Under the pieces are notes generated by a model. It made no database searches. It was not told where the DNA came from and saw only the letters and a list, made by a program, of their open reading frames with translations. From the NCBI RefSeq assembly GCF_000317615.1, contig NC_019780.1:124001-188000 (forward strand): DNA of 64,000 nt, in the 5' to 3' direction. Below, one piece after another: positions 18,272 through 28,079 of the stretch (positions are counted from its first letter, which is position 1; the number at the start of each line of letters is the position of its first letter). This DNA comes from Dactylococcopsis salina PCC 8305 (GTDB lineage Bacteria; Cyanobacteriota; Cyanobacteriia; Cyanobacteriales; Rubidibacteraceae). A program made the translations under genes and the position numbers.

Positions 18272-18640
18272 GCCCCCTAACCCCCAAGTTTGGGGGGAAA
18301 AGATAAAAAGTAGTAGTAAAAAGTAGGTTGGGTGGAGGGAAACGAAACCCAACAACAATATTCGTTATTCGTTATTCGTTATTCGTTATTTGTTCACTGA
18401 TTACTGATCACTGATCACTGGTCACTGGTCACTGCAATGGGTGGAGGGAAACGAAACCCAACAACAATATTCGTTATTCGTTATTTGTTATTCGTTATTT
18501 GTTCACTGGTCACTGGTTACTGGGAGACGTTCCATGGAACGTCTCTACATTGGTCACTGATCACTGATCACTGATCACTGATCACTGGCCACTGGTCACT
18601 GCAATGGGTGGAGGGAAACGAAGCCCAACACAAATTAAAA
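18272..18640. repeat. Repeat block between devB and devC (types A and B, heptamers, CCATGG palindrome)
   Basis: One type B unit (18272-18298), three type A units (GGTTGGGTGGAGGGAAACGA / ACCCAACA), long heptamer runs of TTCGTTA and of ATCACTG/GTCACTG, and a perfect 22-nt palindrome centred on CCATGG (GAGACGTTC arms) at 18524-18545. The last type A unit ends only a few bases before devC, so it supplies part of its leader. No gene is present. Confidence 0.85.
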
Positions 18641-18643
18641 GAT

Positions 18644-19789
18644 ATGTCAATTTCTCTTTCTTGGTTACAAATTTCTCATAGTAAAATTCGCTTACTCATT
18701 GCTTTAGCTGGAATTGGGTTTGCGGATATCTTAATGTTTTTACAGTTAGGCTTTCGGGCTGCACTTTTTGAAAGCGCAATTACACTTCATAAACGCATTG
18801 AAGGAGACATTTTTTTAATGAGTTCTCAATCGACAGCGCTAATTGGTTTAGATCGGTTTTCTCAACGTCGAATGTATCAAGCGCTTGCGGTAGAAGGTGT
18901 GGAATCAATGTCTCCTATTTATATTAATTTTGCTTTGTGGAAAAATCCGATCGATAAAAATACAAGAGGGATTATGGTCATTGGAATTGATCCCTCGGAT
19001 CAGGTTTTAAATCTGCCGAATTTTGAGGAAAATAAGGAAATACTAAAACTAGAAGATTATGTTTTATTTGATAAAAAATCTCGTTCCGAATTTGGTCCGA
19101 TCGCGCAATTATATGCAGAAAATAAAGTTGTTAAAACAGAAGTTAGTGAACAACAGGTGACGGTAGGAGGATTATTTGAACTGGGCGCATCTTTTGGCGC
19201 AGATGGTAACATCATTACTAGCGAAAGCAACTTTCTTCGCATTGCTGGCGGTGAACAGGGGCTTATAGAAATTGGTGTTTTAAGGGTTAGTGATGATGCT
19301 AATTTAGACGTAGTTTTAGCCAAAGTTCGTCAAATTCTTCCCGATGATGTTCAAGTTTTTTCTAAAGAAGAGTTTATGGATCATGAGAAGTCTTATTGGC
19401 AAAATAGCACCGCGATCGGGTTTATTTTTACTTTAGGAACAGCCATTGGTTTAGTTGTTGGCATTGTCATTGTTTATCAGATTCTTTACACTGATGTTTC
19501 TGATCATCTTCCTGAATACGCAACCCTAAAAGCGATGGGATATCGAGATCGTTATTTCCTAAGTTTAGTGTTTCAAGAGGCGTTAATTTTAGCGGTTTTA
19601 GGCTTTATTCCTAGCGCTGGAATCGCAACCGTTTTATATCAGTTAACCTTACAAGCAACAGGATTACCGATTGTAATGACAGTAACTCGGTTGGGAACGG
19701 TTTTTGTTTTAACAGTTGTTATGTGTACATTTTCAGGGGCGATCGCGGTGCGACGCTTAGAAAAAGCTGATCCGGCTGATATTTTTTAA
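18644..19789 (+). CDS. devC: DevC-type ABC exporter permease
   Basis: A 381-residue MacB/FtsX-type permease. It has an N-terminal transmembrane segment (LLIALAGIGFADILMFLQLG), a large extracytoplasmic domain (about 45-255), and three C-terminal transmembrane segments beginning TAIGFIFTLGTAIGLVVGIV. The DevC hallmarks IRLLIALAGI and FADILMFLQLGF are present. The frame runs back into the repeat block to an ATG at 18608, but the ATG at 18644 gives the family N-terminus (MSISLSWLQISHSKIRLL). It works with DevB and DevA; in Anabaena this transporter exports heterocyst glycolipids, whereas unicellular relatives export unknown lipids or toxins. Confidence 0.92.
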   Translation: MSISLSWLQISHSKIRLLIALAGIGFADILMFLQLGFRAALFESAITLHKRIEGDIFLMSSQSTALIGLDRFSQRRMYQALAVEGVESMSPIYINFALWKNPIDKNTRGIMVIGIDPSDQVLNLPNFEENKEILKLEDYVLFDKKSRSEFGPIAQLYAENKVVKTEVSEQQVTVGGLFELGASFGADGNIITSESNFLRIAGGEQGLIEIGVLRVSDDANLDVVLAKVRQILPDDVQVFSKEEFMDHEKSYWQNSTAIGFIFTLGTAIGLVVGIVIVYQILYTDVSDHLPEYATLKAMGYRDRYFLSLVFQEALILAVLGFIPSAGIATVLYQLTLQATGLPIVMTVTRLGTVFVLTVVMCTFSGAIAVRRLEKADPADIF

Positions 19790-23542: not shown

Positions 23543-24772
23543 TTAACTCAAATAGAAATAGACAGCTTGTAAACTGCCAACTAAAAATCCTAAAATTCCT
23601 CCTAAATTTACGATCGCTTGTAACTCATTTTTGACGATCGAGTTTACCGTTGTTTCTAACTGTTCGGGTGTCGTCGCATTAACGCGGTTAATGATGACTT
23701 CATCAATAGATAAAATCGGAATTACTTTCGTCACAATGGCTTCTAATTCTTCTTCTAAATATCGTTCTAAAATTAGAGATAATTCCTCACTGATTACCTC
23801 TAAGGATTGATCCACAGACTCCGAAGATTGTAAACGTTTAATGATTAAAACCGCTACATCTTCCCAATCGATCGAGCTTCCTAGAGATTGTAATAAAGTC
23901 GCACCTTTGTTTTGTAAATAAGTTTGTACCGCCTCCCGAACACTTTTTCGCAGTTGTCTCACCGTAGAAACGGGTAAATTTTGCAAAGATAAACTTTTTA
24001 ACCAATCACGAAGACGAGTGCGAATTTCCAGAGTTAAAACTAATTCCTCTATTCTCATATTTGCGGTTTCTTTCTCATCTAAACAAAACGCCCGCAATCG
24101 ATTTAAAGTATTACGAAGACCAAATAAATTAGCAACAACCCAATAAGTACCACTGGATTTTTCACGGAAGGTTTCATCAATGACTTGAATATTGCGATCA
24201 GTGAGTAAATCAATAATAATCAACCGCAGACGATTCGGGGGAAGTACCACATCCACTAACCAATCCGACAACTGTTTGGCTTGATTATCCGTAAATTGAA
24301 AGTCAATGAGAACTTGATCAAAAATCTGGTTGATTTGTGCTTCTAAAAAGTCTTCCCGTCTCGATAAGACTTTAATTAAACGGGGTAACGACTCACTAAA
24401 TAAATCACGGAGAACATTTCCTAAAACTTGAGCACTTTTTTCTTGTTTATTTTGTCCAACTTGTTGTAAAGACGATTTTAATAACCAAGAAATCGCCCTT
24501 TTTACTCGTTCTGGTTCAAGCAAACGGCGGGCAATTTTTTGTAATTCCTGCGGCGTTAGTAGTGACCCCATAATTGTATTCGCTACCCGTTTCGCGAGAT
24601 TCCCTTGATTACGGGGAATTAAACCAGGTGTAAACGGAAGACGCTGTTTCCCAACATATAGGGGTTGATAAGGACGAAACAGCATTTTTATAGCAATATC
24701 ATTGGTGAAATAACCAATAATTCCACCCGCTACTGGAGGAACAATCATTAACCCAAGATCAGAGAAATTCAA
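23543..24772 (-). CDS. DUF445 family membrane protein
   Basis: A 409-residue protein. It opens with a transmembrane segment followed by [19 protein letters not shown] and [17 protein letters not shown], the diagnostic DUF445 stretches. A long charged helical middle (about 90-380) follows, and the protein ends with a second transmembrane segment ([20 protein letters not shown]). The family is widespread in bacteria with no assigned function. It is the first gene downstream of the duplicated promoter cassette, whose promoters point toward it, so that cassette may form its long leader. Confidence 0.88.
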
Positions 24773-24878
24773 AATAACTAATAGTAATCATACAATTCGA
24801 CACTGTTTCCATTTTAGAGCTTGCAGCCTTGATCTCATCAGTTCTGCTAATCCTTCCACCTGACAACGCCCCGCATCT

Positions 24879-25312
24879 GCTATAATCTATATTGATGGCG
24901 AAATTTTTTTCAGTACCATCTAGCTCTGGGTTCTCAACTCAACCCTTTGAGCAAACGTCTATCCTGAACAATTTTAATTGAAAGTAATAAGCAACAGAAA
25001 GATAACATTCTCCTAATTCTGTCAACCCCTCTTTACAAATCTTTGCTCTTTGCAACAAAAATCCATGGCAGTTGTCATTAGAATTTTCTAAAAAATGCTC
25101 GATCGAGGACGCTGTAATCAGTCTTAGAGGAGTCTATTTTGGCAGCAACATAGAACATCCTCATCGATTATTGTTTCTGTCAATATACCTGAAACGTCGC
25201 AATCTCGTCAATATTTCACAGCAATTTTTATCGTAAACTTTTGTAAACTCTCGTCATTAATAGAATCTAACTATGATTTAGCTGTAAACCATAGATTTAT
25301 TTCAATATTATT
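24879..25312 (-). repeat. Duplicated ~430-bp non-coding unit, copy 1
   Basis: Together with copy 2 (25328-25761) this makes a direct repeat of period 449 bp. By eye there are about 15 substitutions and one indel over ~420 bases (about 96% identity). Each unit, read on the minus strand, starts with a candidate RpaB site and a sigma70-like promoter and ends about 300 bp later in a GGGTTGA...AACCC stem. A central stretch of about 80 bases around TCTTTACAAATCTTTGC and the promoter region are unchanged between copies. No convincing gene is inside, though a 28-codon frame exists in both. It could encode a regulatory RNA. Confidence 0.9.
25182..25248 (-). promoter_or_regulatory. HLR1-like RpaB site plus sigma70-like promoter, copy 1
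   Basis: On the minus strand, 25248-25230 reads TTTACAAAAGTTTACGAT: two TTTAC-type octamers with a 2-nt spacer. It matches the HLR1 consensus (G/T)TTACA(T/A)(T/A)NN(G/T)TTACA(T/A)(T/A) except for one base. It is followed by TTGACG (25211-25206), an 18-bp spacer and TATATT (25187-25182). The predicted start is near 25175. HLR1 is the established binding motif of the cyanobacterial regulator RpaB; here it lies upstream of -35, the layout associated with activation. Confidence 0.65.
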
Positions 25313-25327
25313 CCTGCTATAATCAAT

Positions 25328-25761
25328 GCTATAATCAATATTGATGGCGAAATTTTTTTTCAGTACCATCTAGCTCTGGGTTTTCAAATCAACCCTGTGA
25401 GCAAACATCTATCCTGACCAATTTTAATTGAAAATAATAAGCAACAGAAAGATAACATTCTCCTAATCCTGTCAACCCCTCTTTACAAATCTTTGCTCTT
25501 TGCAACAAAAATCCATGGCAGTTGTCATTAGAATTTTCTAGAAAATGCTCGATCGAGGACGCTGTAATCAGTCTTAGAGGAGTCTATTTTGGTAGCGAGA
25601 TAGAACATCCTCATCGATTATTGTTTTTGTCAATATACCTGAAACGTCGCAATCTCGTCAATATTTCACAGCAATTTTTATCGTAAACTTTTGTAAACTC
25701 TCGTTATTAATAGAATCTAACTATGATTTAGCTATAACCCATAGATTTATTTCCATACATT
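25328..25761 (-). repeat. Duplicated ~430-bp non-coding unit, copy 2
   Basis: Second copy of the unit described at 24879-25312. It lies directly downstream of truB (minus strand), so its promoter could act after truB termination. Copy 2 has TTTTCTAGAAAA, a perfect palindrome, where copy 1 has one changed base. A TATAAT-like box on the plus strand (GCTATAATCAAT) occurs at the left edge of both copies. Confidence 0.9.
25632..25698 (-). promoter_or_regulatory. HLR1-like RpaB site plus sigma70-like promoter, copy 2
   Basis: Same elements as in copy 1 and identical in sequence: HLR1-like motif at 25698-25680, TTGACG at 25661-25656, 18-bp spacer, TATATT at 25637-25632. Conservation of all three blocks between copies, while nearby bases differ, supports function. 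Confidence 0.65.
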
Positions 25762-25806
25762 TTGCAATTGGAGAAAGAAACCCGTAAAATTTCCTTTCCT
25801 GAAACT

Positions 25807-26721
25807 TCACGCTTCCATAACAGTTTTCGGTTTTAAAATTTCGGGGGGAACTTTTTCCCCAACCCCTAAAAATAAACCATCTTCCCGATAGACTCGTAGA
25901 AAACTAGGGCGATCGCTGGCGGTTGATAACACAACAAATTGTCCTTGACACCAACGTCGGGCTTGGTTGGAGTCTAAATCAATTCTTTCTAAATGCTGTA
26001 ACGGATAGTCTAGGGGAAGCGGCGTAAATTTTCCGTCTCTGAGTTCGGTTTCTAAATTAGGGAGTGTGAAACTATCCTCTAAAGAGAAACCACTGCTTTT
26101 AGTTCGTCTTAATGCGGATAATGTGCCACCCGTTCCCACCGCTTTTCCTAAATCTCGCGCGATCGATCGAATGTAAGTCCCACTTTTGCAACGAATCTCA
26201 AGCGTGAGTTCTGGAAACTCTCCCCCCTGCCAGTTTAAGATTTCAATCTGATCAATTTCTACCTCTCGCGGCGGAACATCAACGGATTTTCCTTGTCTGG
26301 CGAGTTCATACAATCGTTTTCCATCTTTTTGAATCGCACTGTAAACGGGTGGAATTTGGATAATTTTCCCTAAAAACTGCTGTAAATGAGGTTTAACCTG
26401 ATCTAAGGTGAGATGAGAAGCTGAAGTTTGTTCAATGATCTCTCCTTCTAAATCGTCGCTACTGGTACGCCAACCCAAACGAATCGTTGCCTGATAGGCT
26501 TTTCCATTCGGAAGAAATTGTAATAAACGAGTCGCTTTTCCCACCGCTAGGGGTAAAACGCCAGTAGCTGCGGGATCAAGAGTACCACCATGTCCCACTC
26601 GTTTCATTTTCGCCCAACGTCTCACTTTCGCTACACAGTCATGGGAAGTGACATCGATCGGCTTATCTATATTAATAAAGCCCATTAAAGGCTGATTCGT
26701 AAAAGCAGTTTCAGTGATCAC
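25807..26721 (-). CDS. truB: tRNA pseudouridine(55) synthase
   Basis: A 304-residue enzyme that makes pseudouridine 55 in the T-loop of tRNAs. The catalytic Asp is in GHGGTLDPAATGVLPL (about residue 47), preceded by the INIDKPIDVTSHDCVAKVRR opening and followed by YSAIQKDGKRLYELAR and the CKSGTYIRSIARDLG motif. A PUA-like C-terminal part starts near residue 240. The start overlaps the end of the small upstream gene by 11 bases, implying translational coupling. Confidence 0.95.
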   Translation of the reverse strand: MITETAFTNQPLMGFINIDKPIDVTSHDCVAKVRRWAKMKRVGHGGTLDPAATGVLPLAVGKATRLLQFLPNGKAYQATIRLGWRTSSDDLEGEIIEQTSASHLTLDQVKPHLQQFLGKIIQIPPVYSAIQKDGKRLYELARQGKSVDVPPREVEIDQIEILNWQGGEFPELTLEIRCKSGTYIRSIARDLGKAVGTGGTLSALRRTKSSGFSLEDSFTLPNLETELRDGKFTPLPLDYPLQHLERIDLDSNQARRWCQGQFVVLSTASDRPSFLRVYREDGLFLGVGEKVPPEILKPKTVMEA

Positions 26722-27353: not shown

Positions 27354-28079
27354 ATGGAAAAAATTCTAGTGGTTGATGACGAAGCAGCCGTGCGTCGAAT
27401 TTTACAAACTCGCCTTTCGATGGTGGGATATGAAGTGATTACCGCAGGCGATGGTGAACAAGCGTTAAAAGTATTTGCAGAAGAAGACCCAGATTTGGTG
27501 GTTTTAGATGTGATGATGCCCAACGGAGACGGTTATTTTACTTGTAAAGAATTAAGAAAAGAGTCGAATGTTCCGATTATTATGTTAACCGCTTTGGGAG
27601 ATGTTGCCGATCGAATTACAGGCTTACAAATTGGTGCTGATGATTATTTAGTGAAACCGTTTTCTCCCAAAGAATTAGAAGCAAGAATTAATACGGTTTT
27701 ACGACGATTGAAAAAGAATGTTGACGCTGCGATTCCTCCTTCGGGAGTGATGCAAGTGGGACAATTACAAATTGATACCAATAAGCGTAGGGTTTATATG
27801 GGAAATGAATTAGTTCGCTTGACGGGTCGAGAATATAATTTGTTGGAATTACTGGCAAGTCATTCGGGAGAGTCCATTTCTCGCACCGAAATTTTAAAGC
27901 AGATTTGGGGCTATGCACCCCAGCGACATGGGGATTTGCGAGTGGTTGATGTCCATGTGTCACGGTTACGAGGGAAAATTGAATCTGATCCGAAAAATCC
28001 AGAATTGATTATTACCGAACGGGGAACTGGGTATTTGTTCCAAAGAGCCAAAGTTGTTAATAAGGCTCAGGCTTGTTGA
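27354..28079 (+). CDS. rpaB: RpaB/Ycf27-like response regulator (OmpR/PhoB family)
   Basis: A 241-residue two-domain regulator. The receiver has D8-D9, phosphoacceptor D52 (VVLDVMMPN), T79 and K101 (LVKPFSP). The winged-helix domain ends with RVVDVHVSRLRGKIE and ERGTGYLFQR. The block ALGDVADRITGLQIGADDYL, the linker and the C-terminal motif match RpaB/Ycf27, the cyanobacterial high-light and redox regulator. It departs from typical RpaB in the middle (GDLRVVDV instead of VDTRVVDV, YFTCKELR) and in a ten-residue C-terminal tail ending in Cys. It may therefore be a paralogue; only a genome search can tell. Confidence 0.82.
   Translation: MEKILVVDDEAAVRRILQTRLSMVGYEVITAGDGEQALKVFAEEDPDLVVLDVMMPNGDGYFTCKELRKESNVPIIMLTALGDVADRITGLQIGADDYLVKPFSPKELEARINTVLRRLKKNVDAAIPPSGVMQVGQLQIDTNKRRVYMGNELVRLTGREYNLLELLASHSGESISRTEILKQIWGYAPQRHGDLRVVDVHVSRLRGKIESDPKNPELIITERGTGYLFQRAKVVNKAQAC

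Follow-up and report, generated by a model that had tools for sequence, protein, structure and literature searches.

What does a non-coding stretch do that stands twice, almost unchanged, between two cyanobacterial genes? In the window, i.e., the whole 64,000-nt stretch of the Dactylococcopsis salina PCC 8305 genome analysed here, such a duplication lies on the minus strand between a DUF445 gene (Pfam PF04286; 23543–24772, minus strand) and truB (25807–26721, minus strand). Its copies span 24878–25307 (430 bp) and 25327–25757 (431 bp), as delimited by BLAST of both copies and a repeat search. An earlier note on this DNA had taken the duplication for a pair of small RNA genes or for the leader of a neighbouring gene.

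Anatomy of the duplicated element

The two copies share 95.8% identity over 431 aligned positions (BLAST), differing by 17 mismatches and one 1-nt gap, which agrees with the ~96% given in the earlier note. The exact 449-bp period reported there applies to the left end of the repeat, the period being 450 bp elsewhere (repeat search). Within each cassette, a core element was delimited by the fall of identity to background: in copy 1 it covers 25001–25286, from ~75 bp upstream of the −35 box of a promoter-like sequence, P1, to ~210 bp downstream, and in copy 2 it covers 25451–25736 (both on the minus strand). Profile R1, a sequence-only model built from 27 copies, matches these cores at 25006–25265 and 25455–25715, and the broader model R2, built from 37 copies, at 25005–25249 and 25455–25699. 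Another R2 match, at 25743–25805, is at chance level.

Across the family, the element is non-coding, ~280–310 bp long and sharply edged: pairwise identity climbs above the background (~0.25) some 70–100 bp upstream of the P1 −35 box and returns to it just past +210. This profile covers copies with the commonest spacing only, namely 13 from the own genome (a set cut to <80% identity) and 16 non-redundant g55/g96 copies of family f2, which we take as heterocystous Nostocales from an NsiR1 match beside one copy. The parts follow one another as an HLR1-like box, P1, a conserved post-start stretch, a central motif, ATTTT, and P2, a second promoter-like box.

In the window, the HLR1-like box TTTACAAAAGTTTACGAT occupies 25230–25247 in copy 1, 18 nt upstream of the −35 box, and 25680–25697 in copy 2, in both cases on the minus strand and with one mismatch to the consensus, just as the earlier note had described it. 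The promoter TTGACG-18-TATATT, also reported there, is present on the minus strand of both copies, at 25182–25211 and 25632–25661, and is conserved across the family. This P1 pair provides the best promoter matches of the region (10/12 letters); the region holds six promoter-like sites, not clearly more than its shuffles (mean 4.1, sd 2.1). The −35-like box of P2, TTGACA, lies on the same strand at 25020–25025, 186 bp from P1 measured start to start, and at 25470–25475; neither P2 nor the wider family had been noticed in the earlier note. With a start at ~25175 by rule of thumb, the putatively transcribed P1–P2 interior would cover 25026–25174 in copy 1 and 25476–25624 in copy 2 (minus strand).

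Among the 28 copies of the own genome that were scored, the P1 −35 box reads TTGACG in 24 and ATGACG in four, the −10 box TATGAT in 17 and another TANNNT in 11, and P2 TTGACA in 22 and TTGACG in six; TG stands at the extended −10 place of P2 in 25 of the 28 and is absent in the window copies. A further copy, L059, missed by the search string and outside these 28, has the same parts. The P1 spacer contains an imperfect dyad. The post-start stretch reads AATAATCC..GGGATG..TGTC in the own genus and CCAAGGGGTTATTGTGTC in f2, and identity at +40 to +59 from P1 is 0.87–0.92 among own copies, equal to that of the promoter. The central motif is AAACCC..AT..TCGT, and conservation stops within the P2 promoter (TTGACA..TG).

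With three mismatches allowed, the genome contains just four occurrences of a 43-nt hairpin sequence, all of them inside the P1 −35 box of an element (L255–L258; genome positions 1423417–1423459, 2590208–2590250, 2833273–2833315 and 3380280–3380322). It sits at an identical place in the four copies, with TGA on both sides. An insert splits off the 5′ part in four of the 29 own copies, and the four with an insert-split P1 −35 box retain only ATGACG. The nearest sister of one hairpin-bearing copy is without the hairpin, whose origin may be site-specific insertion or gene conversion. On the plus strand, the extended −10 sequence TGCTATAAT was found at 24878–24886, 25315–25323 and 25327–25335, reading into each cassette from its other side relative to P1; it is possibly an antisense promoter, and it was also seen by eye near some other copies of the element.

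The HLR1 consensus, given in passages of PMC13421787 as KTTACAWWN2KTTACAWW, is matched without mismatch by the own copy before ntcA; the window copies have one mismatch each, one copy has two, and the other 24 of the 28 scored have three to seven. Judged by mismatches alone, the match was better than nearly all shuffles in four of the 28. The best match lies 18–19 nt upstream of the P1 −35 box in 23 of the 28, a shared position that is expected from common descent, and at 17–19 nt in 14 of 33 related loci checked. Identity of the HLR1-like stretch is 0.50–0.62, compared with 0.33 in the adjoining spacer, and the box was found in the own genus and in some other families. A regulator of the OmpR type would probably bind it. 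The gene of the regulator expected to bind HLR1, rpaB (27354–28079, plus strand; NCBIfam NF045944, 386 bits against a cut-off of 330), lies outside the element.

Relative to the inferred start at ~25175, the box spans about −72 to −55. This is near the range of about −66 to −45 in which, according to the same passages, upstream HLR1 sites activate in low light, sites over the start acting as repressing ones (PMC13421787). If RpaB is the regulator, such a position predicts activation in low light, whereas a high-light RNA would call for the reverse. Of the unit drawn in the earlier note, the HLR1-like box and the sigma-70-type promoter stand as conserved parts; the high-light RNA has become doubtful, since the box would by its position be of the upstream type described as activating in low light.

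Copies in the genome and in the order

An R1 search of the own genome (3,781,008 bp, one contig) returned 29 dispersed copies at E 4.4e-41 or lower, the window pair being two of them, and the twin pair of small RNAs proposed earlier does not survive this count. The 27 further copies, together with the result that the broader profile has no match in 1.03 Mb of reversed or of block-shuffled sequence versus 184 in forward sequence (at least 30 bits, overlapping loci counted repeatedly), place the similarity of the cassettes beyond chance. Doublets of the main family were found at five loci (the window, L038, L040, L041 and L042), and recent near-identical duplicates at distant loci share ~490–500 bp, more than the core. 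Weaker R1 matches are also present in the genome, some as arrays: four matches 454–503 bp apart (1823268–1824824), five at intervals of 310–382 bp in L118, and a pair in L117. With scores of 11–25 bits, the L117 and L118 arrays are only probable relatives of the element.

Within the order, R1 matched 61 of 388 genomes from 22 of 149 genera (E up to 1e-4), and R2 matched 100 of 376 genomes from 41 of 149 genera (E up to 1e-5). About five candidates were scored per genome, so that per-genome counts are lower bounds; some matches are themselves model members, and the E-values are rough. Applied to 291 genomes of the phylum, a sample whose share of other orders is not given, R2 matched 16 genomes, all in the own order and including the own genome. 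A pattern scan of named genomes matched Spirulina sp. CS-785/01 and one Scytonema metagenome-assembled genome; nine non-cyanobacterial records in the same scan were taken as chance. The same layout recurs in other families of the order, and the conservation in relatives anticipated by the earlier note is thereby borne out. Plasmids and phages gave no match to the window cassette or the L190 copy, and viral contigs gave none to the one f2-type pattern used as a query. A tandem array with a period of ~206 bp was seen at L170 (G265:C14), where adjacent matches overlap as if the P2 of one unit were the P1 of the next.

The element appears to stand free of genes, as its orientation to the next gene is mixed. 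Among the 29 own copies, the nearest downstream ORF runs with the element in nine and against it in 16, four having none within 1.5 kb; the counts are 11 with and 17 against for 28 f2 copies, and 13 with, 12 against and one absent for 26 other copies (ORFs of at least 100 aa, mechanical calls, several loci orthologous). Five of the six copies in the related genome G001 have a syntenic counterpart in the own genome, among them the copies that precede ntcA and mnmG, genes named in the own genome by NCBIfam. In the tree, mnmG is the only one of these five own/G001 pairs to form a group (support 97/75), and many own copies cluster with each other; the separation of the other four pairs speaks for conversion or a weak signal.

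Spacing, fold and coding capacity

With P2 sought only 165–235 bp from P1, the P1–P2 distance is 185–187 bp in all 28 own copies scored (187 bp in 21) and 182–185 bp in all 29 f2 copies from g55 and g96 (184 bp in 24); L059 has 187 bp by hand count. Among the loci covered, 97 distinct copies carry both boxes: 79 fall at 182–188 bp, 13 at 204–205 bp, and the remaining five at 191, 193, 197, 214 and 217 bp, one each. The 204–205 class includes seven copies with ~9 extra bp before the central motif and six with all ~20 extra bp after it and none before. Part of the equality of these distances is due to common descent.

Gap columns make up 0–2% of the interior in 12 out of 12 orthologous groups, at 60–95% identity. 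In the flank from −150 to −60, they reach 14–37% in nine of the groups and are absent from three. In three groups, gaps make up 39–55% of the bin containing P2, probably an effect of this bin extending beyond the element. An interior that has diverged in sequence yet acquired few indels suggests a constraint on its length. Neither helical phasing of the P1–P2 distances (p 0.07–0.11) nor a 10–11 bp period of conservation (p 0.27 and 0.15) was significant.

Searches for a known or structured RNA were negative. At the gathering score, Rfam has no match in the window, and a relaxed scan of 24700–25850 returned one chance-level match to an animal miRNA (E 1.1); on 16 related loci, Rfam matched only NsiR1, away from the element. 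This agrees with the earlier note, which had recognised no known RNA. No conserved helix was supported on either strand in 27 or, with L012 dropped, 26 genus-centred rows; the same holds for the 23 of 28 g55/g96 rows that were left when five divergent ones had been dropped. The sole predicted helix consists of four pairs in the P1 spacer and shows no compensatory change. Single folds of six sequences resemble those of their shuffles (z −0.63 to 0.55), and the idea of a structured RNA, as it might be drawn from the earlier note, thus finds no support. No intrinsic terminator was found at 24760–25810 of the window, and the repeat search found no inverted repeat of at least 20 nt in the cassette region.

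Coding capacity was likewise sought: by eye, the copies share no reading frame, their frames being broken at different places. Stop-free runs in the forward frames of 29 copies have a median of 33–34 codons versus 24–26 in shuffled sequence, with single copies reaching 76; they appear slightly long but are not shared.

Explanations and related systems

A free-standing small-RNA gene has its own promoter, and by sequence the element carries one, the family-conserved TTGACG-18-TATATT. The reading we tentatively prefer, at somewhat less than an even chance, is that the element is a non-coding transcription unit in its own right, transcribed from P1 and probably under an OmpR-type regulator. It is based on two features that stand free of genes: a conserved promoter and, behind it, a stretch that is conserved as well, which a bare promoter would not need after its start. 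RpaB is the most likely regulator: by binding at the HLR1-like box it would activate P1, so that the promoter would be on in low light and off in high light. Transcription by RNA polymerase would begin near 25175 and 25625, and the predicted product would be a short, probably light-controlled, unstructured RNA of very roughly 150–200 nt. Least certain is the part played by the fixed interval: through it, P2 or a protein bound to both boxes might restrict the transcript or set its timing. The copies multiply by duplication, both nearby and at distant sites, and sequence probably passes between them. Should they be transcribed, related and probably light-controlled non-coding RNA genes could number as many as 29 in this genome, unusually many for a bacterium; roughly one in four sampled genomes of the order (100/376) has matches to related units. 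A near-fixed distance between promoter boxes, with neither coding capacity nor RNA structure, represents a constraint that current annotation misses.

The main rival of this RNA unit, possible at a clearly lower probability, is a DNA-level device in which P1 and P2 act as two promoter or operator boxes at a set distance, with one regulator or two polymerases on both and any RNA incidental. In relatives, both boxes read roughly TTGACR-AAAT-gap-ATTT; their near-constant distance in own, f2 and pooled copies (28/28, 29/29 and 79/97), the arrival at 204–205 bp through different insert placements, the nearly gap-free interior of all 12 orthologous groups and the lack of an RNA fold all point the same way. 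An interior with no fold and hardly any indels would fit a constraint on DNA at least as well as an RNA unit. However, the helical tests were not significant, no bridging protein is known, and much of the equality of distance reflects common descent, and P2 was sought in a restricted interval only. A more elaborate version would join the boxes, 184–187 (or 205) bp apart, and the upstream OmpR-type site into a single nucleoprotein switch of ~300 bp that measures distance between twin promoters, with the RNA as by-product or timer. This would be a new class of bacterial regulatory element, carried through a cyanobacterial order and multiplied to as many as 29 copies per genome; we regard it as speculative and unlikely.

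Comparably unlikely in our view is a selfish or mobile non-coding repeat that carries a promoter and persists because it spreads, not because it is used. Such a repeat might produce what is seen here: genomes with anything between no copy and 29, five loci with tandem doublets, recent copies that are almost identical yet lie far apart, a distribution limited to one clade, and a hairpin inserted at exactly the same position of four copies. However, the cassette region lacks long inverted repeats (at least 20 nt), the segment shared by recent copies (~490–500 bp) is not a unit that ends cleanly at the core, and syntenic copies hold their motifs and length between species while the adjoining non-coding DNA diverges. 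Least probable, and to us improbable, is a promoter or leader module of the neighbouring gene, the alternative that the earlier note had raised for DUF445. Copies in the same direction do lie just upstream of ntcA in the own genome, G001, G003 and G005 (with a weak match in G002), and just upstream of mnmG, trpS and, in L012/L092, a CHASE2-like gene (gene type by eye); conservation also breaks off within the P2 promoter, from which the next gene could be transcribed. Still, the nearest downstream ORF opposes the element in 16 of 25 own, 17 of 28 g55/g96 and 12 of 25 other copies, and no common function was seen among the neighbours. In the three relatives with a readable region upstream of DUF445 (G001, G002 and G003), another ORF lies directly upstream and the element is missing, which, with the mixed orientation, speaks against a duplicated DUF445 leader.

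Taken as a non-coding RNA unit, the element can be set beside several described systems. PsrR1 of Synechocystis 6803 is, in passages of PMC13421787, an RpaB-controlled, single trans-acting RNA that acts in high light. A non-coding RNA gene under RpaB is a known arrangement; by that description PsrR1 differs from the present element, which has 29 copies, a putative RNA product and an upstream site whose position predicts activation in low light. NsiR1, a tandem-array small RNA of heterocystous cyanobacteria, resembles it in having promoter-bearing units in tandem, but the one Rfam match to NsiR1 (RF02399, 39.9 bits, cut-off 39), at L156 3143–3194, lies ~1.4 kb from an element copy and not within it. 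The Yfr2 family shares with it several copies per genome and a wide occurrence in cyanobacteria, whereas the element matches no Rfam family and has no conserved fold.

RUP, IRU and Correia elements are examples of promoter-bearing small dispersed repeats and MITEs. Like the element, small repeats of this kind are dispersed, intergenic, ~100–300 bp long and non-coding, as excerpts of PMC2229807, PMC2759123 and PMC10969869 describe them; the element differs in the lack of inverted repeats of at least 20 nt in the cassette region, in synteny between species and in a near-fixed P1–P2 distance. In Rfam and in the published text covered, partly as excerpts and with subscription papers and supplements outside its scope, no description of the element was found, and the portions of PMC2662882 and PMC4734099 consulted contain no such family; the latter does group near-identical small-RNA copies into families. 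By its features, the element would work much as a small-RNA gene in many copies does, or a repeat that carries a promoter, although it shows no match to a known RNA, no fold and, at 20 nt or more, no inverted repeats.

Other repeats were noted in the same genome. Diverged tandem arrays at L116, L117 and L118 resemble subfamilies of the element and adjoin REP-like GTAGGTTGGGT..AAACCCAAC repeats. A second repeat family with GGCGAAATTTTTTTTCAG, its units ~300–390 bp apart (L047 5029; L049 4923 and 5259), has a 17-nt string in common with the right end of the window cassettes, and exact matches to a 17-nt string occur at about a dozen further places in the genome. R2 matches at 18627–18772 and 18905–19073 of the window fall within a devC permease gene and were rejected as chance. 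Directly before devC, 18329–18635 consists of short tandem repeats, TGGGTGGAGGGAAACGAAACCCAAC with runs of TCGTTATT and CACTGATCA.
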